Shown: piece by piece, positions 7,816 to 30,524 of the stretch
How the letters are laid out: each line of letters begins with the position of its first letter
How positions within the stretch are numbered: the first letter of the stretch is position 1
Source of the DNA: a virus
Virus record (IMG/VR): IMGVR_UViG_3300021371_000050
Location: 1-35,515 of that record
Strand: one strand, 5' to 3'
Length of the DNA stretch: 35,515 nucleotides
Notes under the pieces: generated by a model
Seen by the model: the letters and a program-made list of their open reading frames with translations, nothing else
Told to the model about the DNA's origin: nothing
Databases searched by the model: none
Translations under genes and position numbers: made by a program

Positions 7816-8934
7816 TTAGCTTTGTGCGCCTGAGAAGAAAACATTGTTGTCGTTATCAGCTGGGCCACCGATAGAGCATGAGAATGTCAAGTCTACACTC
7901 TTGTTGGAGCCGATAGATGAACTGAATGACTCAGAGTCTAGCTTGGCATTTTTAAGTTGGTAAGCAGATTGTGCTGTTCCTCCGGGGTTTTTAAACGTGA
8001 TGGTTATATCTGAACCAACTTCATCGTCTATAATAGCGTTAAGGGAAGCTGCTGTAATATCGTTAACGATTGCACTAATTGACAGTGAAGCAGTAACAGG
8101 GAAGTCTGCGGGTCTAGCGAAAGCGAACCTAGAGCCTAACCTCTCGATAGGTGTTCTAGAAACAGATGTGTTCAAACTCAAACTTTGGATGTGGGAGGCT
8201 GAGGCATCAGAGCCCAATGTTGCGATTGGCCCCTTTGTACCACTAGTGGCAGCTGTGCCGAAATTGATAACAATATCTCCCGGACGCAAGGCTGCTACAG
8301 CAGAATCTAAATCACTCGGAGCTGGCAATGCAGCTAGGGTTGTAGTGAAGTTTGCCCCGTCTTCCCTTTTAACGGCAGGAGAGGAAATCCCACTAATCCC
8401 AGCGTCACTTCCACTTACTTGGGCATCTCCGTTTATATTCAAACCTTCCATACTTACTGAGACAGTTGGTATGGAACCTACTGAAGCCTCCAAGGAATAG
8501 TCTGTCAAGTATGCGTTTCCTATTCCGATAGTCGAATAACCTGTCGATGTTTCAGTTTGTATATTGACATCTTGTCCCTCAGGGGAAGTAACAATATAAA
8601 GGTTTTTACCTGAACCTTCTACAAAGTGTCCAGAAAGAAATCCTACTGAACCATTTGCTGAAAAACTGGTGCTATCCGCAAAACCTAGGTTTACTTCGTT
8701 AGTCCCGTCATGCAGGTAATAACTGAAGTCTACACCCACAGTCGGAGACTCAAGAACGATTGAATCCAAGCGTCCTAGTTGTCCGTATTGGTTGATATCT
8801 GTACGTGCGATACTAAAGTTGTAGTTAGCGCTCTGCACTCGATGGAGCTGCTTGTGATTTGCATGAGCTGTGCTAGACGCATCATCACTGATGTATAACG
8901 CCTCCGATTGGTAAATAACTCTGTTTCTGGCCAT
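7816..8934 (-). CDS. Tail tube-like protein, paralogue 1
   Basis: This 372-residue Ser/Gly-rich beta protein shares clear similarity with the genes at 21,288-22,376 and 19,558-20,343. The shared core is NAYLTDYSLEASVGSIPTV (residues about 140-158) and, further on, the pattern RTPIERLGS followed by PVTASLSISA. This fits a repeated tail-tube or tube-adaptor fold. It is the last gene of the inverted neck-tail block, the usual place of the major tail protein, so it is the most likely main tube subunit; the paralogues may form the tail end. The upstream gap of about 47 bases is AT-rich, with no clear Shine-Dalgarno. Function is inferred from context and paralogy. Confidence 0.65.
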   Translation of the reverse strand: MARNRVIYQSEALYISDDASSTAHANHKQLHRVQSANYNFSIARTDINQYGQLGRLDSIVLESPTVGVDFSYYLHDGTNEVNLGFADSTSFSANGSVGFLSGHFVEGSGKNLYIVTSPEGQDVNIQTETSTGYSTIGIGNAYLTDYSLEASVGSIPTVSVSMEGLNINGDAQVSGSDAGISGISSPAVKREDGANFTTTLAALPAPSDLDSAVAALRPGDIVINFGTAATSGTKGPIATLGSDASASHIQSLSLNTSVSRTPIERLGSRFAFARPADFPVTASLSISAIVNDITAASLNAIIDDEVGSDITITFKNPGGTAQSAYQLKNAKLDSESFSSSIGSNKSVDLTFSCSIGGPADNDNNVFFSGAQS

Positions 8935-8981
8935 AATAGTTTATTTTTTAATGTTTACAATTTTTTTGGGTAAATGTGAAA

Positions 8982-9830
8982 TTAAGAAAATCTATGCCTA
9001 TGCACTTGAATGTCGAAATCTACGAATCCGACATATAGTTCATTGGCTAAGTTTTTCATTGCTTTTTGAGTGAGTTTAGAAGTTTGTGTATTCTTCACAA
9101 AGAATGGATGGCCACCCGTATGTTCAGAAGCTAAACCTGTGTATGTGTAATTCTCTCCACTTTTGAGATCTCCATTTTCATCTATAGGGTGTCCACTCAT
9201 AGGTATTTGATTAAACACCTCATCCTGAGAATCTGCGAAGATAGAAAGAACCCCGTCTAATTGGAAAGGGTCTTCTGCTAAAATTACTGCCTTTGCCCTA
9301 ACTGTTGTCTCTTGTTCTCCTCCGAAAGCAAATGGGTCATTATCAACCGCATTTACTGACAGGAAAGCAGCAGGGACAGCAAGATCGTATGGAGCGATAG
9401 CTCCAGTATCATTTACACCAAAATCATACTTTCGGTCAACAATAATGTCTTCTTCTGTATCATTTGTGAAATATACGTTAAATTCTTTCCTAAGGTAACC
9501 TGTTGGCAAAGTTGTCACTGGGGAGGTTAACGATATAGTGTCAGGTACCAAAGCCCTGCCATTGTTAAAATCAAAGACAACACCATCACTACGATCATAT
9601 GTGTTGTTATTGGCGTCCTTTACCCCGGTAGGAATATTGCCATGCCCACTTTCATAAACCCATTCTTTGAATGAGCTTGTGTATACATTGTAGTCGCTAT
9701 CAACACGATAGTCGGTAGTAGGGTATAATTGTCCTGAAACCTCCTGATAAGCTTGACCCTTTGTTGTTAAAAAGTTATCGAACCAAAGTAAAAAGGAGTT
9801 CGTAAATTTATGTTGGAATTGTTCAATCAT
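8982..9830 (-). CDS. Tail or neck structural protein
   Basis: The 282-residue protein begins with a helical segment (MIEQFQHKFTNSFLLWFDNF) and continues as an acidic, beta-rich protein with VYFTNDTEEDIIVDRKYDFG and a C-terminal VGFVDFDIQVHRHRFS. I do not recognise a family. Its start overlaps the stop of the upstream neck-region gene by 4 bases, so the two are probably translationally coupled. Position between the completion-type protein and the tube-like protein suggests a tail terminator or connector role; this is inference. Confidence 0.7.
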   Translation of the reverse strand: MIEQFQHKFTNSFLLWFDNFLTTKGQAYQEVSGQLYPTTDYRVDSDYNVYTSSFKEWVYESGHGNIPTGVKDANNNTYDRSDGVVFDFNNGRALVPDTISLTSPVTTLPTGYLRKEFNVYFTNDTEEDIIVDRKYDFGVNDTGAIAPYDLAVPAAFLSVNAVDNDPFAFGGEQETTVRAKAVILAEDPFQLDGVLSIFADSQDEVFNQIPMSGHPIDENGDLKSGENYTYTGLASEHTGGHPFFVKNTQTSKLTQKAMKNLANELYVGFVDFDIQVHRHRFS

Positions 9831-10414
9831 TTTAGTTTATCAAATCTTTTTTCGTACTTCTTTATTAGGGCAGATATATATTGAACGTTCTTGAACCTAC
9901 CGCTCCTAACTTTATTGTTACTCTGTATAGCTACACCTGATCTGCTGTTTTGTGAGCTTTTTCTTAAAAGATAACCTAATCCAGATATACCAGTTTCAAT
10001 ACCTCTGGCCCAACTTCTGCCTGTGGCCCAAGGCATAGGTGTGGCCGAAAATATATCTTTTGCAGTAGGCATACTTATGTCATACTTGCGACCTACTCCA
10101 TATGTTGTCTGCTCTATATCTTTCGTTATTTTTATATCCTCTAGTATATCAAGTATTGGTTGCACTGGGTTATCTCCATCATCAAAACCAATAAATGCGT
10201 ACAGATTCGTGATGCCATTTAGTGTTCCACTTATATTTACCCCATCTGGACCCTGAAGCAACTCTTGGGTAACAGGATGCGACATGAATTCGTTGATCAT
10301 ATCTTTTTTGACATCTTTGAACTTGTCATCGATGCTTTTTCTAAACTTTTTCTTTACTAGTTTAGGTACTTGCGCTCTTATTGCAGCCTGAACGTCTAGT
10401 GGTAATTTAGCCAT
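9827..10414 (-). CDS. Probable neck / tail completion protein
   Basis: The 195-residue protein is basic, with a Lys-rich N-terminus (KLVKKKFRKSIDDKFKDVKK) and a C-terminal segment with PWATGRSWARGIETGISGLG followed by a basic helix (QYISALIKKYEKRFDKLK). Small basic proteins of this type are common head-tail or tail completion proteins. Its ATG overlaps the upstream stop (position 10,414) and its stop overlaps the next start, so the minus-strand genes form a tight operon. The family is not confirmed; the role is inferred from location and composition. Confidence 0.65.
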   Translation of the reverse strand: MAKLPLDVQAAIRAQVPKLVKKKFRKSIDDKFKDVKKDMINEFMSHPVTQELLQGPDGVNISGTLNGITNLYAFIGFDDGDNPVQPILDILEDIKITKDIEQTTYGVGRKYDISMPTAKDIFSATPMPWATGRSWARGIETGISGLGYLLRKSSQNSRSGVAIQSNNKVRSGRFKNVQYISALIKKYEKRFDKLK

Positions 10415-10863
10415 TAGATTTCGTCCAATGGGACTAGGTAGAATATAAAAAACTGGTTGTCTGTAAACCCATATGGGCTAGCTTGACTGGCGATACTGAA
10501 CTTGTTCTCATCAAAAGTTATATTTTTTGCTTCTCTAATATAAGCGTAAGCAGTCTCATCTACGATTATCTTAATAGAACCCTTGGGTAAGAAAACCTTG
10601 TCTTGGGCCTCTGTGATCTCCTCTTGATCTGAATCAACATAATAGATCCTAGCTTTGAAGGTTTGAGATACAACTGTTTCCTGCTCCACCTTCCTCCCTT
10701 GGTTGGTTCGACCGTAGATTGGATTATACTTTGTGTTTGTAGACACAATAACTTCCTGCTTACTGACCTTGAAAACAACTATATCTCTTGCGAAAGTTGT
10801 ATGCAAAGTACTGAACTTGGACCTGATGGATGTGATAGTATCACTAGATAAAAACCCTGACAT
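10414..10863 (-). CDS. Probable neck protein, first gene of inverted tail block
   Basis: The 149-residue product looks like a small beta-barrel head-tail joining protein: FARDIVVFKVSKQEVIVSTN and NPIYGRTNQG at the N-terminal side, then FKARIYYVDSDQEE, then a strand-rich C-terminus ending FFIFYLVPLDEI. The pattern of a Tyr-Asn-Pro-x-Tyr-Gly loop is frequent in phage neck proteins of this size. It is the first gene of the minus-strand operon (10,863 to 7,816) and has a promoter-like element ending exactly before its ATG. The exact family is not proven. Confidence 0.65.
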   Translation of the reverse strand: MSGFLSSDTITSIRSKFSTLHTTFARDIVVFKVSKQEVIVSTNTKYNPIYGRTNQGRKVEQETVVSQTFKARIYYVDSDQEEITEAQDKVFLPKGSIKIIVDETAYAYIREAKNITFDENKFSIASQASPYGFTDNQFFIFYLVPLDEI

Positions 10864-12982: not shown

Positions 12983-15900
12983 ATGCCACTTCAATTACAA
13001 GTAACACAAACAGGATTAGAGAGAAGCATTCAAGAAGGCATGAAGAAGGCCGGAAGGAATCTTAAGCTCAACTTAGGGAACACCCGAAACATTGATGCCT
13101 TGTCTCAACCATTAGGTAGGTTGACTGGAAAGGCAGATGAATTTACCAAATCTATGGAAGCTGCTAACGCTCGTGTGTTAGCTTTCGGTGCTTCTGTAGG
13201 TGTTATAGCTGCCGTTACTAAAGGTATGCAAGAGTTGGTTAGGACGACCATTGAGGTCGAAAAGAGTATGGCCAACATTAACTCTATTTTGCGGCAAACT
13301 GACGCTCAAATGAGTACTTTCAAAGACACTCTGTTTGATGTAGCTAGGAACACAGAGCAGACTTTCGGGGCTGTCGCCGAGGCTGCTTTGGAACTGTCTC
13401 GCCAAGGCTTAAAAGCTGAACAGGTCACCCAACGATTAAATGATGCTTTGGTTTTATCTCGTTTATCTGGGCTAAGCGCTGCTGACTCTGTTTCAGGTCT
13501 TACAGCGGCAATAAACTCTTTTTCCAAGTCTGGTATAACTAGTGCGGAGGTTCTTAACAAGATATCGGCTGCTGCCGCTAGCGCAGCTGTTTCAGACAGA
13601 GATTTAATTGAAGGTTTGAAACGGTCTGGTGCTGTGGCTGTTTCTACAGGGGTGGGATTTGACAAATTGCTAGGCATAATAGGGGCTTTGCAAGAAAAAA
13701 CAGCTCGTGGTGGAGCTGTGATAGGTAACTCTCTTAAAACTATATTCACAAGAATCCAAGATGTAGACAGACTTAAAAGCCTACAGAACCTAGGGGTTCA
13801 GGTGACAGACTTGGAAGGTAACGTTTTGTCTGCTGATAAAGTCATTGAGAACTTGGCCCCAACATTTGCTAAGTTAGACCAAGTGTCTAAAGTTAATTTA
13901 GCGGATAATCTCGTTGGCAAATTTCAAATTGCCCCATTTTTGTCTTTGCTTGAGCAATACAACGCAGAAGTAGTAAGGAGTAATGAGATAGCTAAAACAT
14001 CATTCGGCGCTACCAATGAAGCTTACGAAAGAAATATAGCTCTGAATGATACTTTGTCAGCAGCCTTAAATTCTGCTGTCATCAACATGAAGGAGTTGGG
14101 CAATACCCTTGGGGAGATAGGTGTAACAGACAACCTAAAAAATGTCCTTGGGTTTTTTAATAGCATAGCTGAAAGTTTGCAAGGGACTTTAGATGGGGAG
14201 GGTGCTGGCAGTACTTTCGCAAAAGGTCTAGTCAAAGGCATTGGTGCTATATTAAGTGGGCCGGGATTAGTTTTATTAGGAGCTGTTGTCACCAAGTTAG
14301 CTTTTGGTTTCGTCAAGTTCGGAACATCCTCCCTAAAAACATTTTTCGGTTTAAATCAAGCAGCAAAAGAACATGCCAATTTACAAGGCCAGATTACAGC
14401 AGCTTTGTTGAATGATTCTTCTATCAGGCAGGATATTCTATCTATAGAGAATAAAAGTATCAGTGTAGAGGAAAAGCGAAAGCAGCAAGCTGAAGCTATT
14501 GCTGCAGCTATGAACGCTCAGCTCACAGTGATGAAGCAGATGCAGTCAATCTCCAAGGGTATAACTCCGAGTGTGGCAGCGAACACCAAAGCTGCACGTT
14601 CTAAGAGCGCAGCGGGAGGGTTCCTGCCTATTGGGGCTGAGAGTGCTGATATATCTCGTGGTGTGGGTGGCGCACCTTCTTCTGCTAAACCTGTTGTTAT
14701 ACCTAACTTTGCTTTTGGTGGAGGCAAAAGAGGAACTATGGTTGCTAACAGTAGCGAGTATATTGTACCTAATTATGCTAATGGTGGTGATGCTATTTTT
14801 AATCAGAATATGGCATCTTCGATGGGCCTTCCTGCTAATGCTAAGAAGGTGAGAGCTGCTAGTGGGTATATCCCAAACTTCGCCCAAGGCGACCCTATAA
14901 ATTCCAAAGGTAGGTATATTATGCTCCACGGTGAGCATGGGAAGACTAACGCCAATAAAATGGCGTACTACCACCCGGAGACTGGAAAGTACAATGTAAC
15001 TGACCAAGAAGGAGCTTTGGCCATTCGTGTCCCTGTTTATGGCCTTACTGATGCCAACAAGGGAAATACAGTCAACGAGTACATAAAAGAGTATGAGGAT
15101 TTCGCAATAGACCAAGGCTTCAAGAAGTCTAGAGAGCTGACAAAACACCTGCCTACTAAGCAGGTAGAAAGCGCTATCAAGGCAAAAGTTAATAGCGGAG
15201 CTGTAGCAGGTTTTGCTGGTAGCATATACGAGCTAGCTTTAGCTTCTATGTTGACAGATGAAGAGTTTAAAAACTATGCAGATCAGGCCGAGACTTCTAA
15301 TTTTGATTTAAACTTGAAGGGTCAGGAAAAATTGCTAAAGCTGTATGGTATTGGAACTAAACCCTTGCATGGGGAAGTTAAGGGAAAAAACAATCCTGAT
15401 AATGTAGCATCTGCTGCCGCCAAGATACACAGGGTTATGGGTGTAGAGGGGCAGAAGAAACAAGCTCCTCAGACAGGTAAGTTGATAGGTAAGAAATTAT
15501 CCAGAAACGATGCTAAAAGGTTTGGCATAATTTCCGACTCAAAGATTCACACAATAACTGCAGGCGACATAGAAAAAATAAATGCCAATACACCAGAAGG
15601 AAAAAGACCTTCCTTTGCTGCAAAAACTGGCGTGTTTAGCGGTTTCGTCAAGCGTAGTGCTTCCGGCTACATCCCAAACTTCGCAGACCCTCTCCAAGAT
15701 GCTATCGGAAGGGAGCAAGCTGCCGGGTTACCTGTCAGCCAGATTAGAATAAATCAGAGCGGCAAACTTAGAAACTCGCAGAACCCAATGGGCCTTGCTG
15801 TTACCAATACTAGAGATGAACCCACTGGTGCTATCCCTAACTTTGCAAAGGGTGATTTAGAGATGTCAGATTTCGGAACTAAATCCAGACCTGTAGAAGC

Positions 15901-18900
15901 CAGCCTTAAAGGTTTGAATGCTGAAATAAGATCTCTCAACAAAGCTCTTAAGAAAGGCACGATGACTAGGGGAGAAGCTGAGAAAAGTTTAAAATCTTTC
16001 ACAGCTCAGATTAAGACAAACAATTCTGTAAGGAAGAAAGTTAACAGCAAAGCTCTTGATTCATTAAAAATAGAGGACAAGACTCAGAAGGGCCAAAGAG
16101 ATAAATTAGGAATGATATTCGGCCTACAAGCTGGATTGACAGCTCTTACAGCTATAACTGGGGATTCTGAAAGCAAATTCGCTCAGTTAACTAATGCAGT
16201 GTCTGATGCTGCCTCCACAGCTACAAGCTTTGCTTTTGCTGGTTCAGCGTTGAAAGACATGGGTGAAGGCTTAGAGGAGGCTGGTGGAGCTATAACCGGA
16301 AAACTGGGTGGTCTTATGGGTAAACTAGGTTCGCTTGGTACGGTTGTGGGTGTAGCTGTTGGTAGTTTTGAATTGGTCAAGAATGTAGTGGCAGAATTGG
16401 ATGGGACAAACGACGGGATAAGAAATGAAAGCTTAAAAACTGTCAGCGCTATGGCTAGGCTGGAAAAAGCTTCTGATGACTTAACTTTTGCTTTTGGTTT
16501 GGTGGGTAAAAGTGCTAAGATAGAAGGAGATATAGAGGCAAAAAATATTGTTGGCCAGAGAGGTCCAAGCGAGTTTCTTTTAGACAGTATGTCCCCTGAA
16601 TTTGCTAGGAAAAGGAATATAGAGAGGCGGGCTTTGCAAGCCGAGAAAGGGCAAGAACAAAGAGATATTTATAGTATAAACCCAGACACAGGGGAGGTAA
16701 GGCAGCTTGTGGATAGAACTTTTGCTGGGGACGAATCTTCCCAAGCTGAATTAAAAAAGAGTTTCACAAGTATTGCATCTGGCTTCAAATCTTTGGGCAA
16801 AAGTTCTGCTGAGATTGATAAGATACTAGACAATTATAAGAGCGAACTTGATGCTAGTGAATTAGATCTATTTAGGTTAGCTTTCCAGAACTTTGCCAAG
16901 GTGGTCAGAGTAGGGGCTAAAAACTTCCAGAGCGCCCTAGATGGACTCAGTCTTGATGAGTTAGAAGCTTTAGCCCAAGGACCACTACCCGTCGGCAAGT
17001 CACTTGTTGATAGGGATCTTGATCGTGTTGGCGGTGACCCAGCCTCGTCTGCTTTTTTTAAAACAGCTGGTATAGCTCCAAATCTTAGGGAGGATCAGAG
17101 AAAGAATCTAATTCAAGAAACTCTTGACGAAAGAAAAAAGAAAAACGCATCCCAGATAAAAACTATCAATGACGATATTGCCAAGGCTGAAATAGCTCAT
17201 GCCATTAAAATGAAAACACTCCGGCTGGATGAAAAGAATGATGCTGAAAATTTCCTAGAACAGCAGAAAGCTTTGAATAATTTAGGAGCTGTGACCATTT
17301 TAAAAATGGAGAGGAAAATAGCTCTTGATCGAAAAGACATCGAGCTTGAGAAAGAAATGCTTAAGCTGGTCGGAGAAGAAGGTTTGAAAATAAAAGGTAT
17401 CGCAATTAGCAAGGAGGGTGTAGCTGAACTTACTAAAAAAATACTATCTGGTAATACAGATACAATTGATTCGCTAAAAAGCATATTAGAACTACAAGGT
17501 TTTCAAGGTGATCTGGGGGCAGCTCAGGTTGACAACTTGCAAAAGGCTATAGAACGTTTAAAAGAAGTTTTCGGCTTAGAAAAGAAGATATTGGATCAGA
17601 GGTTTGTGAACCAAATTGGTGTTGGTCAAGGTGTTTTTGCAGACAAAACTACTAATCAACTTTACAACGAAGAAATTGAGATGCAAGGTCTCAAAAGATC
17701 GGCTGACGCAGGGAAAATAATTTCTGACTTGCAAACTCAAAACATTAGAATAGGTCAGAGTTTGCAGTTCGGAGGTTTTAGCTCCGTTGGGATGGCTGAT
17801 GCGAGAAGCAAAGTTAATTCTAATAATTTGACCATAGAAGAACAAAATAGAGCTAAACTAGTATCAAATCAGACGGTAGCTATGGAGAAATTAACAGAAT
17901 CCATACGTACAGCTAATTCAGATCAAAAGCCCGGTTTAGAGAGTGATAGAAGGTTGCTATTAAAGAGGCAAGCAGAGGAAAGAAGGTTAGCTGACGTAAA
18001 AGTTCAAAACGCTAGGGAAAAAGCAAACCTTCCTGACCCTGATCTTGCAAAGCTAAACAGGTCTATGGGGCAGAGGGTGTCTGACAAGTTTGGGGATTCT
18101 CTGAAAACAAGCTCTCAACTAAAAGACAATCTAATAGATTCATCGTTTCAGTTTATGATGAATATGGATCAAGCATTTAGAAATGCAATTGGTGGCGCAG
18201 ATGACCTAGGTGAAGCCTTACTTGGTATCGGAAAACAATTTTTAAGTGATATCACAGGGGCTTACAGTAAAAAGTTCTTGACTGATTCTTTTGCTGGCGT
18301 TTTTGGCAAAGGTCTTAAAGATGAAGTCCAAGTCAAAACTGCTGCAGCAGGTGGTTTTATTTCTGGAGGTTCTGGCAACAAAGACGATGTCCCTGCTATG
18401 CTGATGGGCGGCGAATTTGTTATGAGGAAAAGTGCTGTTCAAAAGTATGGCGCAGGTTTCTTTAATGCTTTGAACAATGGTGGGGTTTCAGGTTACGCTT
18501 CGGGAGGTTCTGTAAGGCAGAGAAGAGATAATGAAGGTATGTTTAGAACCCCATCATCATCTTCTGGTTATATAAGTGGAGCTGCCGACCTTATGTCTTT
18601 TGCCACCCAATCTCCTAACAGGATGGGTGGGGATAGCTTCATAAAGGGAGGTGCTACAGCAGCTTTTCTAGATCCTGAGAGTGCTAGGTTAAGCATGTTC
18701 GGTCGTAGGAACAGTCAGCAGTTCGAACAGATCCAAGGGGCTAAAAGACAAGCCTTCGATCTGGCTATTGCAGAAATGGCGCAGGAAGATGAGGCAAGAA
18801 GGGCCGCCAAGAAATCCAAAGGGCAGTTCTTAAAAGATATCCTCTCTGCTGGAATAAGTGCTGGGGCAGGTTACCTAGGGGCGCAGTTTGCGACAACTCA

Positions 18901-19558
18901 AGGACTAGGAAAAATCGCAAAAGGTTTAACCGGGTTTGGAGCTAACATACTTGGGACTGCAGTTACTGATGGTGGGTCTAGTGGTTTTGGAAATTTCGGA
19001 GCTGGTTATTTTGGGAACAATATCCCTAAAGGGGTGCCAGTATTCGATGATGAAATCGGGAATGGTTACATTTCCTCCTTCGGAAATGAACAAGATATCT
19101 TAGATAGTCTTCCCGGAGGTCCAGTAATGTATGGACCTGATGGTGTATTAAGAGGTGCATCGAATACTAGTTTACCATTCAGCTTCGCTACCGGAGGAAT
19201 GGTCTCCAACGCTTCAGGTGTAGACACTGTCCCGACCATGCTATCAGGAGGAGAGTTTATTATGAACGCTGCTGCTACTAAGAGACTAGGCGCTGGAAAT
19301 TTACAAGCTCTTAACTCAGGGTCTGGTGGAGGTGGAGATAATTCTCAGTTAGTAGGAAAACTAGATGAGCTGATCAGTGCTACTGAAGATGCTACTGGAG
19401 GCGAAATTAATATCACTATAAATAGCGAAGGAAAAGAAAACGTCAAGACCTCTGAGGGTGCTTCTGAAGACCAGAAGAGGCTGTCAGAAAGAATCAAAAC
19501 AGTAGTTAAACAAGTCATCACAGACGAAAAGAGATTGGGAGGCCAACTTAGGAAGTAA
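12983..19558 (+). CDS. Tape measure protein with embedded PD-(D/E)XK-like domain
   Basis: The tape measure sets tail length and passes through the tube; 2,191 residues fits a long tail. The N-terminal 400 residues match the TP901-type tape measure core (VEKSMANINSILRQTDAQMS, then AALELSRQGLKAEQVTQRL and GLSAADSVSGLTAAINSFSK). A hydrophobic stretch near residues 419-443 may contact or cross membrane. Five PNFA/PNYA motifs occur at residues 571-577, 593-599, 627-634, 894-901 and 949-955. Between the third and fourth lies a globular insert (about 640-890) with Glu750, Asp775 and Glu798-x-Lys800, the order and spacing of a PD-(D/E)XK nuclease core. Long helices (1150-1730) follow. Two C-terminal copies of a VPAMLMGGEFVM-type motif (near residues 1800 and 2080) are typical of tape measures. 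It overlaps the next gene by 1 base. Confidence 0.92.
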   Translation: MPLQLQVTQTGLERSIQEGMKKAGRNLKLNLGNTRNIDALSQPLGRLTGKADEFTKSMEAANARVLAFGASVGVIAAVTKGMQELVRTTIEVEKSMANINSILRQTDAQMSTFKDTLFDVARNTEQTFGAVAEAALELSRQGLKAEQVTQRLNDALVLSRLSGLSAADSVSGLTAAINSFSKSGITSAEVLNKISAAAASAAVSDRDLIEGLKRSGAVAVSTGVGFDKLLGIIGALQEKTARGGAVIGNSLKTIFTRIQDVDRLKSLQNLGVQVTDLEGNVLSADKVIENLAPTFAKLDQVSKVNLADNLVGKFQIAPFLSLLEQYNAEVVRSNEIAKTSFGATNEAYERNIALNDTLSAALNSAVINMKELGNTLGEIGVTDNLKNVLGFFNSIAESLQGTLDGEGAGSTFAKGLVKGIGAILSGPGLVLLGAVVTKLAFGFVKFGTSSLKTFFGLNQAAKEHANLQGQITAALLNDSSIRQDILSIENKSISVEEKRKQQAEAIAAAMNAQLTVMKQMQSISKGITPSVAANTKAARSKSAAGGFLPIGAESADISRGVGGAPSSAKPVVIPNFAFGGGKRGTMVANSSEYIVPNYANGGDAIFNQNMASSMGLPANAKKVRAASGYIPNFAQGDPINSKGRYIMLHGEHGKTNANKMAYYHPETGKYNVTDQEGALAIRVPVYGLTDANKGNTVNEYIKEYEDFAIDQGFKKSRELTKHLPTKQVESAIKAKVNSGAVAGFAGSIYELALASMLTDEEFKNYADQAETSNFDLNLKGQEKLLKLYGIGTKPLHGEVKGKNNPDNVASAAAKIHRVMGVEGQKKQAPQTGKLIGKKLSRNDAKRFGIISDSKIHTITAGDIEKINANTPEGKRPSFAAKTGVFSGFVKRSASGYIPNFADPLQDAIGREQAAGLPVSQIRINQSGKLRNSQNPMGLAVTNTRDEPTGAIPNFAKGDLEMSDFGTKSRPVEASLKGLNAEIRSLNKALKKGTMTRGEAEKSLKSFTAQIKTNNSVRKKVNSKALDSLKIEDKTQKGQRDKLGMIFGLQAGLTALTAITGDSESKFAQLTNAVSDAASTATSFAFAGSALKDMGEGLEEAGGAITGKLGGLMGKLGSLGTVVGVAVGSFELVKNVVAELDGTNDGIRNESLKTVSAMARLEKASDDLTFAFGLVGKSAKIEGDIEAKNIVGQRGPSEFLLDSMSPEFARKRNIERRALQAEKGQEQRDIYSINPDTGEVRQLVDRTFAGDESSQAELKKSFTSIASGFKSLGKSSAEIDKILDNYKSELDASELDLFRLAFQNFAKVVRVGAKNFQSALDGLSLDELEALAQGPLPVGKSLVDRDLDRVGGDPASSAFFKTAGIAPNLREDQRKNLIQETLDERKKKNASQIKTINDDIAKAEIAHAIKMKTLRLDEKNDAENFLEQQKALNNLGAVTILKMERKIALDRKDIELEKEMLKLVGEEGLKIKGIAISKEGVAELTKKILSGNTDTIDSLKSILELQGFQGDLGAAQVDNLQKAIERLKEVFGLEKKILDQRFVNQIGVGQGVFADKTTNQLYNEEIEMQGLKRSADAGKIISDLQTQNIRIGQSLQFGGFSSVGMADARSKVNSNNLTIEEQNRAKLVSNQTVAMEKLTESIRTANSDQKPGLESDRRLLLKRQAEERRLADVKVQNAREKANLPDPDLAKLNRSMGQRVSDKFGDSLKTSSQLKDNLIDSSFQFMMNMDQAFRNAIGGADDLGEALLGIGKQFLSDITGAYSKKFLTDSFAGVFGKGLKDEVQVKTAAAGGFISGGSGNKDDVPAMLMGGEFVMRKSAVQKYGAGFFNALNNGGVSGYASGGSVRQRRDNEGMFRTPSSSSGYISGAADLMSFATQSPNRMGGDSFIKGGATAAFLDPESARLSMFGRRNSQQFEQIQGAKRQAFDLAIAEMAQEDEARRAAKKSKGQFLKDILSAGISAGAGYLGAQFATTQGLGKIAKGLTGFGANILGTAVTDGGSSGFGNFGAGYFGNNIPKGVPVFDDEIGNGYISSFGNEQDILDSLPGGPVMYGPDGVLRGASNTSLPFSFATGGMVSNASGVDTVPTMLSGGEFIMNAAATKRLGAGNLQALNSGSGGGGDNSQLVGKLDELISATEDATGGEINITINSEGKENVKTSEGASEDQKRLSERIKTVVKQVITDEKRLGGQLRK
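14690..15847 (+). repeat. PNFA-type repeats in the tape measure gene
   Basis: Five degenerate copies of the core PNFA (variants VIPNFA, IVPNYA, SGYIPNFA twice, AIPNFA) occur at about nt 14,693, 14,759, 14,861, 15,662 and 15,827. They lie at the edges of Gly-rich linkers and flank the embedded domain, so they look like punctuation between modules. Confidence 0.75.
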
Positions 19559-23472: not shown

Positions 23473-23787
23473 TTAATTGACCTTAATCTTAGAAGGTTTA
23501 ACCACCCCCTTTTTAGGTAACTCTACGAGGAGTAACCCTTTCTCCATCTTACAAGTTATGTTTTCTGTGTAAACTTTTTTCATTAATTTTACAGAAAATT
23601 TCTTTTTAGATTCCTTAGGTTTGGTCTCAATGTTTAGCAGATCGTCAGTTACCTCTACCTCAACATCATCTTTAGAGAAACCGGGAAGCTCAACCTTTAG
23701 TTGGTAAAAGTCTCCTTTGTCTCTAATGGTGCTATATGGTCTAACTGAATAATCTTCGAATATATTGTCAAATAATGTATTAATCAT
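23473..23787 (-). CDS. Small heat-shock protein (Hsp20 family)
   Basis: The 104-residue product is a compact alpha-crystallin domain: KGDFYQLKVELPGFSKDDVE (residues about 24-43), VEVTDDLLNIETK, then NITCKMEKGLLLVELPKKG, the conserved G-L-L-x-V-x-x-P ending. The N-terminal arm is short. Small heat-shock proteins hold unfolded proteins in soluble form; in marine phages they are thought to help virion assembly or protect host proteins. It lies between the glycosyltransferase and the FmdB-like gene on the minus strand, with a strong terminator behind it. Confidence 0.9.
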   Translation of the reverse strand: MINTLFDNIFEDYSVRPYSTIRDKGDFYQLKVELPGFSKDDVEVEVTDDLLNIETKPKESKKKFSVKLMKKVYTENITCKMEKGLLLVELPKKGVVKPSKIKVN

Positions 23788-23816
23788 AACATACTATTAA
23801 CATAACACATGCCACT

Positions 23817-24881
23817 CTAGAAATCGTTGGAAATACGGGACATAATCACATCCACAGTGTTAGAATAAGTCAGCTTGTCTGCCAATTTTTGTCCCTCTGT
23901 GTTAGTCTGTCCCACTTTCTTTTCGGATTCTTCCATAGCTGCCAACACCTGATCCTCATCCCAAGAATAAAAAGTTCCTTGGTTAAAAGGTGAGCCCTTC
24001 TTAAAAAACACATTGTCAACACAATCTACTTCTCCATTAGGCTCTATCAGGATAGAGTTTTCTTTCGTAGCCCAATCTTTGTGAGATGTGGCGTTTAAAA
24101 CAATACTCCACTTCCCTAAACAAGTTGCATTAAATGAAGGAAGGTTCCAACCCTCTGCTCCAGAAAGACCTGTTAAATCAACATCTATTGCATTTAGAAA
24201 CTCATTCACTTCTGAATTTTTCTCTAGATGAGGGAGGAAGTTGATATTTGTGTATCTTTTCCCACCAAGAACAGCGCCCAAAGTTTTTTGCATGTCTTCC
24301 GGTTTGTAAAACGGATTGTTCACTAAACAAGATAACTGGTACTTAGGGTTATTCCCATATTTCTTTAGCCAAGTTCTAATAATAGCAGCTGTATGCTTCC
24401 TATGCTCAAACTTGCCCATCAAACCAAAGTGAATAACATCACTCAGGTATTCTTTTTTTGTTTCTTTGAAGTCTTTGTCGAAACCCAAAGGGCTGAAGCT
24501 GCTGCCAAACAGGTTAGCAGCGTGTTCAGAACTAAAGAATGTTTCAGTTTGGGCATCGCAAATTTGTTCTTCTACTTCCGTAGGGTTATTACACTCATAA
24601 AACGAATACAGGTATTGTTTTTCATTTTTACGATTTTCAGAACCATTGAGATGCCAAACTTTTAAACAGGGAATTTCTTCACCTAAGTAGGAGTACCTAT
24701 CATTGATTGAGTTCTGGATCTTAGACTTCAATTCATCTGGAACATCATATGCTTTAAGGTCTATATTTCCGATAGGCCAAATAGCAACATCATGTCCTTT
24801 CTCAAACAACTCCCTTATAATGTTATAGCTAACATTACCAAGGCTGAGAGAATTAATAGGTGCTTCTACTAGGATCTTCAT
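23817..24881 (-). CDS. GT-B fold glycosyltransferase
   Basis: The 354-residue product resembles group 1 (GT4-like) glycosyltransferases. It has the N-terminal MKILVEAPINSLSLGNVSYN, a central linker FGLMGKFEHRKHTAAIIRTW that matches the start of the nucleotide-sugar domain, and the donor-binding motif GLSGAEGWNLPSFNATCLGK near residue 240, like the E-G-F-G-L-P motif of the family. Its ATG overlaps the SSB stop by one base (TAATG), so it is translated with the sigma-SSB operon. The acceptor is unknown: glucosylation of phage DNA, virion protein or host sugar are all possible. It is separate from the glycan cassette at 29,732-32,965. Confidence 0.8.
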   Translation of the reverse strand: MKILVEAPINSLSLGNVSYNIIRELFEKGHDVAIWPIGNIDLKAYDVPDELKSKIQNSINDRYSYLGEEIPCLKVWHLNGSENRKNEKQYLYSFYECNNPTEVEEQICDAQTETFFSSEHAANLFGSSFSPLGFDKDFKETKKEYLSDVIHFGLMGKFEHRKHTAAIIRTWLKKYGNNPKYQLSCLVNNPFYKPEDMQKTLGAVLGGKRYTNINFLPHLEKNSEVNEFLNAIDVDLTGLSGAEGWNLPSFNATCLGKWSIVLNATSHKDWATKENSILIEPNGEVDCVDNVFFKKGSPFNQGTFYSWDEDQVLAAMEESEKKVGQTNTEGQKLADKLTYSNTVDVIMSRISNDF

Positions 24882-25255
24882 TAGAATGGTACTTCGTCAT
24901 CTCCTGCACCTACTGGCACTGGAGTTTTAGAATCGTCATCCTTCTTATCTTTGGAACCAGAATTAAGGAATTGGATATCACGCCCCTTAATGTAGTACTT
25001 GGTGAAGTTCTTACCATCTTTTTCCCAAGAATCCATAGCAAGTTCACCACTGAAGACGAACTCACGGCCCTTGGAAAGGTATTTACCTGCTACTTCAGCA
25101 GTCTTATCCCATACTTCAATGTCAATGAAGCATTTTGTTTTTGCATTGCTTGGAGAAATGCCAACCCGAAGTCGGGTTACGGTTTTCCCACTATTTGTCT
25201 GCTTCATCTCTGGGTCTTTAACCAGATATCCTACTGCTGTTACTGTATTATACAT
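24881..25255 (-). CDS. ssb: Single-stranded DNA-binding protein
   Basis: The 124-residue protein is a bacterial-type SSB. It has an OB fold with NTVTAVGYLVKDPEMKQTNS, TRLRVGISPSN, CFIDIEVWDKTAEVAGKYLS and GRDIQFLNSG, then a short charged linker and the acidic tip DDEVPF, which in this family recruits replication partners. It coats single-stranded DNA during replication and recombination. The start overlaps the stop of the sigma-like gene by 8 bases and its stop overlaps the glycosyltransferase start. Its partners are likely the RecA-like protein and DnaB-type helicase encoded at the right end. Confidence 0.92.
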   Translation of the reverse strand: MYNTVTAVGYLVKDPEMKQTNSGKTVTRLRVGISPSNAKTKCFIDIEVWDKTAEVAGKYLSKGREFVFSGELAMDSWEKDGKNFTKYYIKGRDIQFLNSGSKDKKDDDSKTPVPVGAGDDEVPF

Positions 25256-25811
25256 AATTACTAACTTTCTTGAATTGTGATAAACATCTATTGTGGATAT
25301 TTATCGTTCCTTGAATACTCATACCTATTTTACCAGCTATGATTCTCCAAGGAGTTGTTTTATTAAGGCACTGATTGTATCTCATGTCAATAACCTTTTT
25401 TGTTTTTTCGTCACACTCCTGTTTTACAAACGATTTAAACAGAGATAGAACCTCCTGTTCTTGCATTGAGGTTATGCCATTCTCCGAAGATGGTTCTGAT
25501 CTGACCTCATTAAGAGAACATTGCGTGAACTTCTTCCTCTTGTTTAGTGTATTCAAACACTTCCATTTTGTATCGTTTGCTAGGTATGTGGGAAACTTTG
25601 TGTTTCTCTCTGGGTCGAAGTTTATTGCGGAGTTGTAAATTGCCAAGCTCTTGTCTTCTAAGAAATTTTGTTTATCACTACAATTAGTCGGGCCAGATAG
25701 GAAACGGTCTACCATAGTATGGTATATACCAGAATGCCTGTCGATCAACTCTAGCAGAGAGTCTTGGTCGGCGTCATCCTTAATCTTTAGAATCAATTCC
25801 TCATCCTTCAC
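25248..25811 (-). CDS. Sigma-70-like RNA polymerase sigma factor
   Basis: The 187-residue protein has two parts typical of small sigma factors. Residues about 20-90 resemble region 2 (LLELIDRHSGIYHTMVDRFL, then IYNSAINFDPERNTKFPTYL), and residues about 130-180 a region 4 helix-turn-helix (KKVIDMRYNQCLNKTTPWRI, then AGKIGMSIQGTINIHNRCLS). It would direct host polymerase to phage promoters, probably the GTGTA-type elements here. A strong sigma-70 promoter drives it. GTG at 25,811 would make the message nearly leaderless; the in-frame TTG at 25,796, preceded by AAGGA with 7-base spacing, is an alternative start. It is the first gene of the minus-strand operon. Confidence 0.75.
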   Translation of the reverse strand: MKDEELILKIKDDADQDSLLELIDRHSGIYHTMVDRFLSGPTNCSDKQNFLEDKSLAIYNSAINFDPERNTKFPTYLANDTKWKCLNTLNKRKKFTQCSLNEVRSEPSSENGITSMQEQEVLSLFKSFVKQECDEKTKKVIDMRYNQCLNKTTPWRIIAGKIGMSIQGTINIHNRCLSQFKKVSNYV

Positions 25812-25818
25812 AATTGTT

Positions 25819-25846
25819 ATTGTATACGATTTTATCCAATTGTCAA
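25819..25846 (-). promoter_or_regulatory. Sigma-70 promoter for sigma-ssb-glycosyltransferase operon
   Basis: On the minus strand TTGACA (25,846-25,841) and TACAAT (25,824-25,819) are spaced 16 bases apart. The -35 box matches consensus fully and the -10 box at five of six bases, so host polymerase could use it early. The predicted start is near 25,812, next to the GTG codon. Confidence 0.75.
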
Positions 25847-25887
25847 CTTATTACAGTATATTATATATATTATAATATAATTATAAG

Positions 25888-25946
25888 AACGTAACCTGTA
25901 GCTATAACGTATACTGTATCAAAGGCTTCTCTGCTTCTGTTACGTT
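25888..25946. repeat. Inverted repeat AACGTAAC ... GTTACGTT
   Basis: Two perfect 8-base arms are separated by 43 bases, within the divergent region between the sigma-like gene and nrdB. The spacing suits a protein-binding site pair or a stem with a long loop. Confidence 0.65.
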
Positions 25947-26055
25947 TCTTTCGATTTTCTTAACCGTTCCCGGTTATTATAGTGTAATAAGGGGTCGTGT
26001 CAATAAAAAAAAATCACAATATTTTCGCTCGACTGAAGACCAAAACAGGGATAAG

Positions 26056-26073
26056 GTGTAATTATTACTTGTT
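26056..26073 (+). promoter_or_regulatory. Candidate phage promoter, GTGTA-type, before nrdB
   Basis: GTGTAATTATTACTTGTT ends at the nrdB ATG. Its first ten bases, GTGTAATTAT, are identical to the minus-strand element at 10,864-10,877, and the next base groups resemble that at 7,255. Confidence 0.5.
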
Positions 26074-27045
26074 ATGATCTTCACAGAACAAATGTCACGA
26101 AAGCCAGACCACTACCCGTGGACCCAAGATTTTATCGAAGCAATGCACAACGGGTTTTGGACCGATAAAGAGTTTAGTTTTACTAGTGACGTTCAAGATT
26201 TTAAGGTTAATTTAAGTGAAGACGAGAGGCAGATCAATGTGAGAGCCTTATCTGCTATTGGTCAGATTGAGGTGGCGGTTAAGAAATTTTGGGCTAAACT
26301 AGGTGATAACTTGCCCCACCCATCTTTGTCTGATTTGGGGTATGTCATGGCTAATACAGAAGTCATTCATAATAATGCTTATGAGCGCCTACTAGAAGTC
26401 TTGGGGTTGCAGGATGTTTTCGAGGAAAACTTAAAATTAGATTTTATTGAAGGTAGGGTGAAGTACCTTCGAAAATACAACCATAGATTTTACAAAGACT
26501 CAAAAAAGCAATATGTTTATGCTTTGATCCTCTTCACACTTTTTGTGGAAAACGTATCGTTATTTTCTCAGTTCTACATAATCAACTGGTTTAACAGGTA
26601 TAGGAATGTGTTGAAGGATACTGGGCAACAGGTAAAGTACACGAGGAATGAAGAGAATATTCACGCACTAGTTGGTATTAAGATTATTAATACTATCCGT
26701 GAAGAACACCCTGAGCTTTTTGATAAGGAGTTAGAAGCCCGTATTCTCCACGAAGCACACGAGGCATTCAACGCTGAATCTAAAATTGTTGATTGGATGG
26801 TGGGGGGCTATAACAAGAAGGGGCTCAGTAAAGAGATCTTAAAAGAGTTTATTAAGAATAGAATAAATGATTCATTGGATAAAATTGGCTTTGAATCTGC
26901 ATTTGATATTGACAAAACCTTACTTCAGAATACAATCTGGTTTGAGGAGGAGTTGTTGGGTAATAATATGACGGATTTTTTTCACTCAAGACCAGTGGAA
27001 TACTCAAAGAATTCCCAATCTTTTGATGTCGAAGACCTATTCTAA
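26074..27045 (+). CDS. nrdB: Class I ribonucleotide reductase, small (beta) subunit
   Basis: The beta subunit makes the radical used by the alpha subunit to reduce ribonucleotides to deoxynucleotides for phage DNA synthesis. The 323-residue sequence keeps the di-metal ligands in order: Glu66, Glu96 and His99 (TEVIHNNAY), Glu159 (FVEN), Glu194 and His197 (ENIH). Tyr103, seven residues after Glu96, matches the radical tyrosine of E. coli NrdB, so a tyrosyl-radical enzyme is expected. The C-terminal DVEDLF is the likely alpha-binding tail. It is shorter than E. coli NrdB (376). nrdA follows after 7 bases. The promoter-like element upstream fits early or middle expression. Confidence 0.95.
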   Translation: MIFTEQMSRKPDHYPWTQDFIEAMHNGFWTDKEFSFTSDVQDFKVNLSEDERQINVRALSAIGQIEVAVKKFWAKLGDNLPHPSLSDLGYVMANTEVIHNNAYERLLEVLGLQDVFEENLKLDFIEGRVKYLRKYNHRFYKDSKKQYVYALILFTLFVENVSLFSQFYIINWFNRYRNVLKDTGQQVKYTRNEENIHALVGIKIINTIREEHPELFDKELEARILHEAHEAFNAESKIVDWMVGGYNKKGLSKEILKEFIKNRINDSLDKIGFESAFDIDKTLLQNTIWFEEELLGNNMTDFFHSRPVEYSKNSQSFDVEDLF

Positions 27046-27052
27046 ATAATAA

Positions 27053-28699
27053 ATGAAAAACTACTATTGGCTTAATGAAGATTCAAGGACTTTTCTTGAG
27101 AATGGTTACCTACTAGAAGGTGAGACCGTAGAGCAAAGAATTAATCAGATAGCTCAGACTGCTGAGGATTATTTAGGTATAGCGGGTTTTGCTGACAGCT
27201 TTGAATCTTATATGGCTAGAGGTTTCTTCTCTTTAGCAAGTCCTGTTTGGGCTAACTTTGGCAGAGAGCGGGGGTTGCCTATTTCTTGTAATGGTGTTTA
27301 TGTGGCTGACACTATGGATGCTATTCTAGAAAAACAATGTGAGGTGGGGATGCAGACTAAGCATGGCTCTGGAACATCTGGTTATTTCGGAGATATCCGT
27401 GGTCGTGGAGCCTCTATAAGTTCCGGTGGGGAGTCATCAGGATCAGTTCATTTTATGGAATTGTTTAGCACTGTCACCTCTGTTGTTTCTCAGAGTAGTG
27501 TCAGGCGGGGCAGTTTTGCAGCTTACCTACCTATTGACCATCCAGATATTAAAGAGTTCCTAAGAATACGTGGTGAAGGGCACCCTATTCAAGAAATGTC
27601 TTTCGCAGTGACGGTGACAAACTCTTGGATGAAGGAGATGGTTGATGGAGACATGGGAAAGCGGCAGCTCTGGGGGAGTGTTATAAAAAAGAGGTACGAG
27701 ACAGGTTACCCCTACATCTTTTTTCAAGATAATGCTAATGAACAAGCCCCCGACTGCTATAAAGATAAGGATATGAAGATATATGCTTCTAATCTTTGCA
27801 ACGAGATCAGCTTGCCATCAAAAGAAGATGAGTCTTTTGTTTGTTGTTTGTCTTCAATAAACCTTTATCGTTGGGACGAAATTCAATACACGGATGCTGT
27901 TCAGGTACTAACTATGTTCCTAGATGCTGTCATGGAAGAGTATGTTCAGAAAACAGCTAAGATACCATTCATGGAAGCCTCTCACAATTTTGCTAAAAGG
28001 CATCGGGCTATCGGGATGGGTGTATTAGGTTGGCATTCTCTGTTGCAAAGTCGTATGATACCATTTGAGAGTATGGAGGCTAAGTTACTCAATAGTCAGA
28101 TATTCTCACACATTCGCCGTTGTAGTGATAAGGCAACTAAGTATCTATCTGAGAAATTAGGGGAACCTATGTATTGTGAGGGTTATGAACGTAGGAATAC
28201 AACTACCTTGGCTGTAGCTCCTACAACAAGTAGCTCTTTTATACTTGGTCAGGTTTCTCCTTCTATAGAACCTTTGAATTCTAATTACTTTACTAAAGAT
28301 TTAGCAAAAGGTAAATTTCGTTACAGAAACCCCGAGCTTGAAAAACTTTTAAAGGAAAAGGAAAAGAACACAGATAGTGTTTGGAAATCAATTCTAGTCA
28401 AAGGGGGTTCTGTCCAGCATTTAGATTTTTTATCTAGGGAAGAAAAGGATGTTTTCAAAACATTTGGTGAGATTTCTCAGAAAGAAGTGGTGATACAAGC
28501 TGTTCAACGTCAGAAGCATATTGATCAAGGTCAGTCTCTCAATATTATGGTCCCACCAGAAACGCCCTTCAAGGAGGTCAACCAGCTTATGGTTTATGGT
28601 TGGGAGAATGGAATCAAGGGGTTTTACTACCAGAGAAGTGCTAACCCTAGTCAAGAGCTTGCTAGGTCAATACTTACATGTACATCCTGCGAGGGTTAA
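27053..28699 (+). CDS. nrdA: Class I ribonucleotide reductase, large (alpha) subunit, compact
   Basis: The alpha subunit is the catalytic part. At 548 residues it is much shorter than the 761-residue E. coli NrdA because the N-terminal ATP-cone is absent, so dATP feedback inhibition by that domain is probably lost. All key residues are visible: Cys79 in SCNGVYV, the Asn247-Leu-Cys249-Asn-Glu251 triad in SNLCNEI, Cys265 in FVCCLSSIN, the radical-transfer pair Tyr525-Tyr526, and the C-terminal Cys543-x-x-Cys546 (CTSCEG) that accepts electrons from thioredoxin or glutaredoxin. There is no sign of an intein or intron. It pairs with nrdB as a two-gene operon. No reductant gene lies nearby, so a host one is probably used. 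Confidence 0.95.
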   Translation: MKNYYWLNEDSRTFLENGYLLEGETVEQRINQIAQTAEDYLGIAGFADSFESYMARGFFSLASPVWANFGRERGLPISCNGVYVADTMDAILEKQCEVGMQTKHGSGTSGYFGDIRGRGASISSGGESSGSVHFMELFSTVTSVVSQSSVRRGSFAAYLPIDHPDIKEFLRIRGEGHPIQEMSFAVTVTNSWMKEMVDGDMGKRQLWGSVIKKRYETGYPYIFFQDNANEQAPDCYKDKDMKIYASNLCNEISLPSKEDESFVCCLSSINLYRWDEIQYTDAVQVLTMFLDAVMEEYVQKTAKIPFMEASHNFAKRHRAIGMGVLGWHSLLQSRMIPFESMEAKLLNSQIFSHIRRCSDKATKYLSEKLGEPMYCEGYERRNTTTLAVAPTTSSSFILGQVSPSIEPLNSNYFTKDLAKGKFRYRNPELEKLLKEKEKNTDSVWKSILVKGGSVQHLDFLSREEKDVFKTFGEISQKEVVIQAVQRQKHIDQGQSLNIMVPPETPFKEVNQLMVYGWENGIKGFYYQRSANPSQELARSILTCTSCEG

Positions 28700-28720
28700 T
28701 TTCATTTTTAATAAAAAAAA

Positions 28721-28737
28721 GTGTATTATAAAGTATA
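28721..28737 (+). promoter_or_regulatory. Candidate phage promoter, GTGTA-type
   Basis: GTGTATTATAAAGTATA follows a poly-A run and ends at the ATG at 28,738, in the 38-base gap after nrdA. No Shine-Dalgarno sequence is present. Confidence 0.45.
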
Positions 28738-29712
28738 ATGGAGTTCGATTTTTCAAAAGAAGCGAAGGATTTTTTAGAAAGTTCTCAGGCGGCTAAGCGT
28801 CCCGGTAAAAAGGGGGCGGCTCAAACACCTGCTAAACCTTCTGAAAGGAAGAAAGGGTCTAGTAAAAATGAAAAAGGTTCTGCTGGCAAAGGTGGTAAAT
28901 CTATTACTTTTTCAGAGAAGGTCGTAACATCTTTGAAAAACAAGGTAAAAGAACATAACGAAAAACACTCCAAAAAAGTTACTTTGGGCCAATTAAAGAA
29001 AATCTACCGCCGTGGCGCTGGAGCTTTCTCATCTTCTCACCGTCCCGGCAAAACTAGGGGACAATGGGCTATGGCCCGTGTAAACATGTTTTTAAAAATG
29101 GTTCGTGGTGGAAACGTCAAGAAATCCTACAGGGCTGCTGACCAAGATGTAGCTAAAGGCTCTGAAGAGTACTACCTAGAGGAGCAAGGGGGAGCTTTTT
29201 GGGCGTTTGAGGAAATTGATTTTGTTTTAGCTCGCCTTGAAATGCTTGAAGCGTCTATTACTGATGAAGAGTCAGATCAAGAGATTGAAGACCTTGAATA
29301 CTCAGACGCAGAAAAGAAAACTTTAAACAAGCCCTTTAGATTAAAAGGCGGAAAGAAGAAGTATGGGGTTTACGTCAAAAACCCAAAGACTGGCAATATA
29401 GTCATGGTTAAGTTTGGTGATCCAAATATGGAGATCAAACGTGACGATCCAGCTCGTCGCCGAAGCTTCAGGGCTAGACATAAGTGTGACACAGCTAAAG
29501 ATAAGACAACTCCTCGTTATTGGAGCTGTAAGTTCTGGTCTAAAAAACCCGTCAGCAAGATGGTCTCTAACGAAGTCCTAGCTTGGGATGAAGAAGAGGT
29601 TTATAGTGAGTGGAGTTGGGATGATGAAGGGTTTGCAGAGCATCAAGACCTACTAAATGCCTACCCATTTCTGACTGAGATTAAATTGGTGGTTGAAGAA
29701 GAGGAACTTTAA
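28738..29712 (+). CDS. Two-domain conserved phage protein of unknown function
   Basis: The 324-residue protein has a low-complexity Lys/Ser/Gly-rich N-terminus (residues 20-55), then two blocks that I recognise as recurring in phage structural proteins and polyproteins. Block 1 (about 57-122) contains KKVTLGQLKKIYRRGAGAFS and HRPGKTRGQWAMARVNMF. Block 2 (about 195-268) contains RLKGGKKKYGVYVKNPKTG, VKFGDPNMEIKRDDP, RARHKCDTAKDKTTPRYWSC, with two Cys. The C-terminus is acidic. Neither block has a known activity; basic residues suggest nucleic-acid or capsid contact. It lies after nrdA, outside the head module, with its own promoter-like element. It may be a DNA-binding or virion-associated protein. 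Confidence 0.75.
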   Translation: MEFDFSKEAKDFLESSQAAKRPGKKGAAQTPAKPSERKKGSSKNEKGSAGKGGKSITFSEKVVTSLKNKVKEHNEKHSKKVTLGQLKKIYRRGAGAFSSSHRPGKTRGQWAMARVNMFLKMVRGGNVKKSYRAADQDVAKGSEEYYLEEQGGAFWAFEEIDFVLARLEMLEASITDEESDQEIEDLEYSDAEKKTLNKPFRLKGGKKKYGVYVKNPKTGNIVMVKFGDPNMEIKRDDPARRRSFRARHKCDTAKDKTTPRYWSCKFWSKKPVSKMVSNEVLAWDEEEVYSEWSWDDEGFAEHQDLLNAYPFLTEIKLVVEEEEL

Positions 29713-29714
29713 GG

Positions 29715-29731
29715 TATAATCATGCAGTAGC
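29715..29731 (+). promoter_or_regulatory. TATAAT box before glycan cassette
   Basis: TATAAT (29,715-29,720) sits 11 bases before the ATG at 29,732. No clear -35 box is visible, so it is only a weak promoter candidate for the glycan cassette. Confidence 0.3.
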
Positions 29732-30523: not shown

Positions 30524-30524
30524 A

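Follow-up and report, generated by a model that had tools for sequence, protein, structure and literature searches.

The tape measure protein (TMP) of an uncultured phage carries, between two SGYIPNFA motifs, a cassette that has defined boundaries, is exchanged and spreads horizontally between phages, evolves under purifying selection and keeps a conserved active site. We consider it fairly probable that this cassette is an exchangeable nuclease effector of the PD-(D/E)XK type, which would be carried in the tail, ejected, and turned against nucleic acid belonging to the host or a competitor (the fold, the catalysis, the ejection and the target being what we infer). The phage is represented by the IMG/VR virus record IMGVR_UViG_3300021371_000050 (35.5 kb), and "the window" below denotes the whole stretch of DNA that was analyzed, 35,515 nt long. 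The family of TMPs to which it belongs has many exchangeable cassettes besides that of the window, a point that was missed by the first-pass annotation of this sequence.

The tape measure protein and the boundaries of the cassette

The terminase-, portal- and lambda gpM-like genes encoded in the window mark it as a phage genome, and the location of the gpM-like minor tail gene (PF05939) downstream of the TMP gene suggests a siphovirus. The assignment of the TMP (Table 1) includes a Pfam match to PhageMin_Tail at residues 121-312 (E 1e-25). Hydropathy analysis revealed hydrophobic segments on both sides of the cassette, with counterparts upstream of it in 96 out of 98 related TMPs and downstream in 81 out of 98; a role of the upstream segment of the window TMP in membrane insertion is possible.

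Elsewhere in the window, four ORFs of 372, 282, 195 and 149 aa are encoded on the minus strand (7816-10863) within the plus-strand structural gene region. They form a moron-like island, and those scanned gave no Pfam or PHROG match. The interval 23473-34432 contains host-like genes (HSP20, SSB, glycosyltransferases, a cytidylyltransferase, GDP-mannose 4,6-dehydratase, the small and large chains of ribonucleotide reductase, and RecA/UvsX), of which the sugar genes suggest glycan synthesis.

The first-pass annotation described a distinct insert between the two SGYIPNFA motifs of the TMP and singled out E750, D775, E798 and K800 within it. Our analysis confirmed both the insert, delimited here as residues 635-893, and the location of all four residues. 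Variants of the motif occur in the window TMP at residues ~573, ~595 and ~951, including a further form, EYIVPNYA, at residues ~592-599 upstream of the cassette. Downstream, a conserved linker containing NPMGLAVTNTRDEP comes after the last cassette across the TMP family; the linker of the window (15686-15847) gave no match in a Pfam scan. An intein or another self-splicing element was considered and rejected: the insert begins with Gln635 and ends with VKRSA, without HN, whereas a Cys/Ser start and a His-Asn end are required.

Table 1. Coordinates of the TMP, the cassette and associated features in the window.
Feature	Position (nt)	Strand	Residues and evidence
TMP, carrier of the cassette	12983..19558	+	ORF of 2191 aa; PHROG tape measure families; Pfam PF10145
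Hydrophobic segment upstream of the cassette	14237..14293	+	residues 419-437; hydropathy
PVVIPNFA, upstream motif variant	14690..14713	+	sequence
Left SGYIPNFA, left boundary of the cassette	14861..14884	+	residues 627-634; DNA similarity of L125/L126 stops
Exchangeable cassette with nuclease-like domain	14885..15661	+	residues 635-893; AlphaFold pLDDT 92
G746-S-I-Y-E750, invariant Gly and proposed first metal-binding acid	15218..15232	+	conservation; helix 104-121 (model)
D775, proposed metal-binding acid	15305..15307	+	131/131; short strand (model)
E798-V-K800, proposed (D/E)xK motif	15374..15382	+	conservation; strand (model)
Right SGYIPNFA, right boundary of the cassette	15662..15685	+	residues 894-901; DNA similarity of L125/L126 restarts
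Conserved linker, DPLQDAIGREQAAG...NPMGLAVTNTRDEPTGAIPNFA	15686..15847	+	downstream of the cassette; evolves with the flanks, r 0.77
Hydrophobic segment downstream of the cassette	16106..16162	+	residues 1042-1060, another at 1108-1126; hydropathy

Conserved residues and the domain family

The close relatives of the insert were few (L002 and L003) and too similar to it to be informative, and relatives were therefore gathered by other routes: via the GYIPNFA DNA pattern, via the TMP N-terminus, and from bacterial genome assemblies. The latter contributed ten contigs from MAGs labeled as Verrucomicrobiales, Neomarinimicrobiota, Flavobacteria, Halobacteriovorax and Proteobacteria, the actual host of which is uncertain because of the binning of phage contigs. 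Comparison of the segments between GYIPNFA motifs among the collected TMPs identified the window insert as one member of a large and very diverse family. When the GYIPNFA flanks were part of the profile, iteration drew in almost every protein via the motifs; a profile of the core without flanking motifs was used instead, and its iteration yielded 89 domains with a mean pairwise identity of 23% (computed on the nonredundant 80).

All 89 of these domains retain G746, D775 and K800, the residue equivalent to E750 is E in 85 and D in 4, and position 798 is occupied by D (53) or E (36). The pattern persisted in an enlarged set of 131 aligned domains from 125 loci: G746, D775 and K800 are present in 131 out of 131, E750 is conserved as E in 126 and replaced by D in five, and position 798 holds D in 73 and E in 58, with nothing else observed. 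G746, E750, D775 and K800 are the only columns with more than 90% identity. Overall, the family displays the catalytic signature of PD-(D/E)XK enzymes, that is, an acid on a helix, a D, and then (D/E)xK. The four positions had been chosen from a single sequence, so that their conservation in relatives provides an independent confirmation, and a lack of conservation among homologues is excluded as an objection to the original assignment. Profile searches favor sequences that keep the strongest profile columns; the matches nevertheless extend over the entire domain, many of them with E values from 1e-16 to 1e-28, and the iteration was started from sequences linked by ordinary BLAST.

The family has several hundred members in the viral collection, with at least 574 TMPs confirmed in one scan. 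Searches of the insert against Pfam, PADLOC, PDB sequences and annotated phage records gave no convincing match, and neither did Pfam and PADLOC scans of 64 family members. A search for the domain outside phages, covering 595 genomes of Bacteroidota and Proteobacteria and run without a positive control, returned one weak match (L357), which resembles an outer-membrane SusD-like protein and was taken as a chance similarity.

Predicted fold of the cassette

The AlphaFold model of the insert (64 sequences) is confident, with a pLDDT of 92 and a pTM of 0.79. It places E750 on a helix (104-121) and E798-x-K800 on a strand (162-166) that is followed by another helix (171-185), giving the order helix(E)-strand(D)-strand(ExK)-helix, in which the first strand is represented by a single bridge residue and the D775 strand by two residues. 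The core topology of PD-(D/E)XK proteins is alpha-beta-beta-beta-alpha-beta. The shortness of the D775 strand and the presence of a helix between D775 and E798 in the model differ from the textbook hairpin.

A Foldseek comparison of the window model with PDB and BFVD found no significant neighbor, and none of the 50 chains listed for it was recognized as PD-(D/E)XK. L243 is a more compact relative, joined to the family via the core profile (E 2.8e-4) and modeled with a pLDDT of 67. Its model also gave no significant match in PDB, and 17 of the 50 chains listed as its weak matches come from what we take to be PD-(D/E)XK-containing proteins of seven kinds, although in the large chains the matched part possibly lies outside the nuclease domain. 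These kinds are, presumably, the influenza B polymerase PA chains, a bunyaviral cap-snatching endonuclease, LHK exonuclease, the resolvase 1ob8, a Cas4-like protein, the Nt.BspD6I nickase, and RecB. Comparison by hhalign with profiles of YraN, Mrr_cat, PDDEXK_1 and TnsA_N, built from genome searches, gave nothing, in a setting where known pairs also failed to match each other.

A confident model lacking a significant structural neighbor in PDB or BFVD, together with the lack of a sequence match to any nuclease family, would also be compatible with a different enzyme or binding domain that has a conserved acidic/lysine site, e.g. a metal-dependent hydrolase of a new fold. We regard this as unlikely because E, D and (D/E)xK follow one another in the right order and at the right distances, each on the type of secondary structure where it is expected, because only D and E interchange at position 798, and because PD-(D/E)XK enzymes are among the weak neighbors of L243. 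We hold a PD-(D/E)XK fold of the insert to be likely, a view to which the weak matches of L243 lend indirect support. Of the initial proposal of a PD-(D/E)XK-like domain, the part concerning the signature is upheld by its conservation, while the part concerning the fold did not receive a significant structural match.

Exchange of the cassette between phages

The clearest case of exchange is provided by L125 and L126, two different contigs from different samples. Their DNA is 99.3% identical over 1841 bases to the left of the cassette and 96.8% identical over 6438 aligned bases to the right, whereas the intervening stretches of about 808 and 781 bases have no DNA similarity and encode products with 27% amino-acid identity. 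The breakpoints fall in or beside the codons of both SGYIPNFA motifs, and all signature residues are present in both cassettes. Within the approximately 8.3 kb compared, the cassette is the only part that lacks DNA similarity; no protection or immunity gene changing along with it was found in this interval (both contigs are incomplete). With respect to the window, both contigs have an N-flank identity of 92%, but the insert identity is 22% for L125 and 88% for L126. An assembly artefact is judged unlikely as the source of the swap because both types of cassette recur across samples and with different flanks (window/L002/L126 versus L124/L125).

The same decoupling is observed across the family. 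Over 3081 pairs from 79 TMPs, the identity of the N-flank correlates with that of the linker (r 0.77) far better than with that of the cassette core (r 0.22), and even at 80-90% N-flank identity the cores are less than 35% identical in 72% of pairs. Together with the L125/L126 swap, this comparison bears out the expectation of a variable insert within constant flanks. Shared cassettes are younger than their flanks: at fourfold sites, the divergence between the window and L002 is 0.13 for the cassette as compared to 0.33 for the flank (p 8e-5), and the corresponding values for L125 and L124 are 0.10 and 0.31 (p 7e-6). Among close pairs, the dN/dS of the cassette is 0.17-0.25. The decoupled identity, the younger age of shared cassettes and the low dN/dS lead to the conclusion that the cassette moves between phages and stays functional.

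Other domains in the same kind of slot

A window-type core is present in the region of the cassette in 104 out of 127 nonredundant TMPs (82%), and in 50 out of 63 TMPs that were found through the N-terminus alone. Several of the TMPs without this core hold different sequences that appear PD-(D/E)XK-like by eye. Altogether, 239 inter-motif segments include 130 with the core and 109 that fall into 54 other groups. For example, a segment between GYIPNFA motifs in the TMP of L099 (8763-9341, minus strand) contains a staphylococcal nuclease (SNase) domain (Pfam PF00565, E 1.8e-9, above the cut-off), so that a nuclease unrelated to the window core sits there in a comparable slot. Acetyltransferase (GNAT) cassettes were found in GYIPNFA-type proteins of L054 (2072-2653, minus strand; Pfam E 1.3e-4, above the cut-off) and L049 (262-693, plus strand; Pfam E 0.0024).

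P-loop ATPase-like domains gave weak but repeated Pfam matches. Such cassettes (GPAGSGKST, ~155 aa) stand beside the nuclease-like cassette in many TMPs, e.g. L086 (9835-10302, minus strand), L116 (2783-3250, minus strand) and about 16 similar segments, and may possibly represent a kinase or ATPase cooperating with it. HAD-phosphatase-like motifs (YDWDGT, DYDYT, DLDET) were read by eye in L092 (618-1040), L116 (932-1528) and L038 (2212-2718), all on the minus strand; the joint occurrence of HAD-like and P-loop cassettes would recall polynucleotide kinase-phosphatase. Protein-kinase-like and ADP-ribosyltransferase-like cassettes were likewise suggested by motifs seen by eye, and Pfam gave no support for the HAD-like, kinase-like or ADP-ribosyltransferase-like assignments. 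A single TMP can hold the nuclease core together with P-loop and other cassettes (L019, L116); the window TMP has one cassette.

This repertoire bears on the possibility that the cassette is a homing-like selfish element, which would cut the TMP genes of co-infecting phages that have a different cassette and be copied in during repair, the benefit going to the cassette itself and not to host takeover. Such behavior could account for cassettes being younger than their flanks and for a precise swap within one gene, and passages of a published study report nuclease genes at the boundaries of genetic exchange between phages (PMC10448857). On the other hand, the domain forms an in-frame part of a virion protein and has no intein signature, slots of this kind also hold domains other than nucleases, the family is old and close to universal among these TMPs, and an exchange mediated by repeats requires no dedicated nuclease. 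We therefore hold a homing-like cassette to be decidedly improbable.

Proposed function and delivery

According to the reading that we favor, a tail-carried nuclease effector, E750, D775 and E798 would hold a metal and K800 would aid catalysis in a putative metal-dependent nuclease. Recombination at or beside both SGYIPNFA repeats would swap the cassette, leaving the tape unchanged while changing the enzyme. The TMP, stored in the tail tube, would exit before the DNA, and its hydrophobic parts would enter the inner membrane; the cassette would then refold at or across this membrane and, at an early stage of infection, cut nucleic acid of either the host or a competitor residing in it. There are precedents for individual steps of this scheme. 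While lambda injects its genome, its TMP is found near proteins of the inner membrane (PMC13190303), active enzymes can reside in TMPs, as described in passages on TM4 (PMC1796659), and the tape-measure-like proteins of contractile particles are packaged and ejected with exchangeable modules (PMC13277306). An exchange of cassettes would fit a conflict in which targets or protections differ from host to host.

The diversity of the cassette could also be driven by escape from host proteins that recognize the TMP, with any activity of the domain being secondary. Siphovirus TMPs are contacted by defense of the SNIPE type (PMC13190303), and variation of their surfaces can therefore be selected for. 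However, the catalytic residues are kept throughout this diversity, and an intact active site would be needless for escape alone; moreover, the changes that confer escape from SNIPE are located elsewhere, at residues 100-150 and 300-400 of the TMPs of other phages (PMC13190303). This explanation appears to us very improbable. Least probable of all is a housekeeping role in the virion, in which the domain would bind or trim the end of the phage's own DNA in the tail or during ejection: the TMP is the protein nearest to the leading end of the genome and 82% of TMPs have the window-type core, but the domain is decoupled from its flanks over 3081 pairs and can be replaced by unrelated sequences while its surroundings stay 97-99% identical, which is unexpected for a housekeeping enzyme.

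Extended to the whole family, the tail-carried effector reading would make the TMP a general recombination platform with GYIPNFA-marked slots, in which nuclease, acetyltransferase, P-loop and other domains are swapped and delivered by the tail together with the DNA or ahead of it. In this view, the nuclease slot would be nearly universal, and its exchange would be much more rapid than that of the remaining tape. On this broader generalization we are evenly divided.

TMPs are usually regarded as rulers and pores. In most TMPs of this family, however, a conserved site resembling that of an enzyme is found in a slot whose swapping does not depend on the tape, as though the tail served to carry interchangeable enzymes that are delivered during infection. 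If delivered, these domains would provide every virion with an early-infection effector route comparable to those of polyvalent proteins and contractile-system effectors. Two questions that have been hard to reach become testable in this system, namely which components precede or accompany the genome into the cell and how soon a phage turns on its host or rivals, and the GYIPNFA boundaries offer a simple handle for finding further cassettes in unannotated phage sequence.

Comparison with known systems

In the open-licence literature, we did not find a description of this arrangement when looking for a nuclease domain, effector or domain insertion in a TMP or for IPNFA (weak evidence of absence). 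The nearest analogies are with the polyvalent proteins of phages and conjugative elements (Iyer et al. 2017, PMC5512222) and with the tape-measure-derived effectors of contractile systems.

Polyvalent proteins are large and multidomain, are thought to be co-delivered with DNA, and contain interchangeable nucleases, acetyltransferases and ATPases (PMC5512222); varied effector domains are a feature shared with the TMP family, and a delivery of the TMP into the host with DNA would be a further one, judging from the general behavior of TMPs. Their carrier, in contrast, is not a TMP (the word "tape" is absent from PMC5512222), whereas here it is a TMP with slots marked by GYIPNFA. In addition, polyvalent proteins pervasively have a self-processing metallopeptidase, while the window TMP has neither HExxH nor any HE dipeptide.

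The Sle1/Tme effectors of actinobacterial contractile injection systems (Nagakubo et al. 2026, PMC13277306) resemble the present case in having a tape-measure-like carrier, packaged in the tail tube, with exchangeable functional domains that vary from one relative to another. They belong, however, to a bacterial particle and have a C-terminal functional domain, as compared to a phage and an internal cassette here, and the paper mentions no nuclease and no GYIPNFA repeats (PMC13277306). Their genes are part of contractile injection clusters, where they neighbor a DUF4157 partner, and not of a phage genome; no DUF4157 was detected among the window proteins scanned. An enzymatic module inside a siphophage TMP, as in the window, is exemplified by the peptidoglycan hydrolase of TM4 in the passages that describe it (PMC1796659). 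TMP enzymes of this type are cell-wall hydrolases that aid entry, in contrast to the nuclease-like site considered here, and those passages contain no exchange bounded by repeats.

With the PD-(D/E)XK superfamily the cassette shares the strictly conserved order of E on a helix, D, and (D/E)xK on a strand. It differs in that no sequence similarity to this superfamily was detected and no match of the fold reached significance, and in having a short helix with a conserved F/Y-G between D and (D/E)xK. SNIPE resembles the cassette as a nuclease that acts at the TMP during genome entry; yet SNIPE is encoded by the host and targets phage DNA, while the nuclease-like cassette belongs to the TMP of the phage (PMC13190303). 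Overall, the mode of action of a TMP with cassettes would be that of polyvalent proteins (PMC5512222) or of effectors derived from tape measures, from which it is distinguished by its carrier and by slots bounded by repeats.
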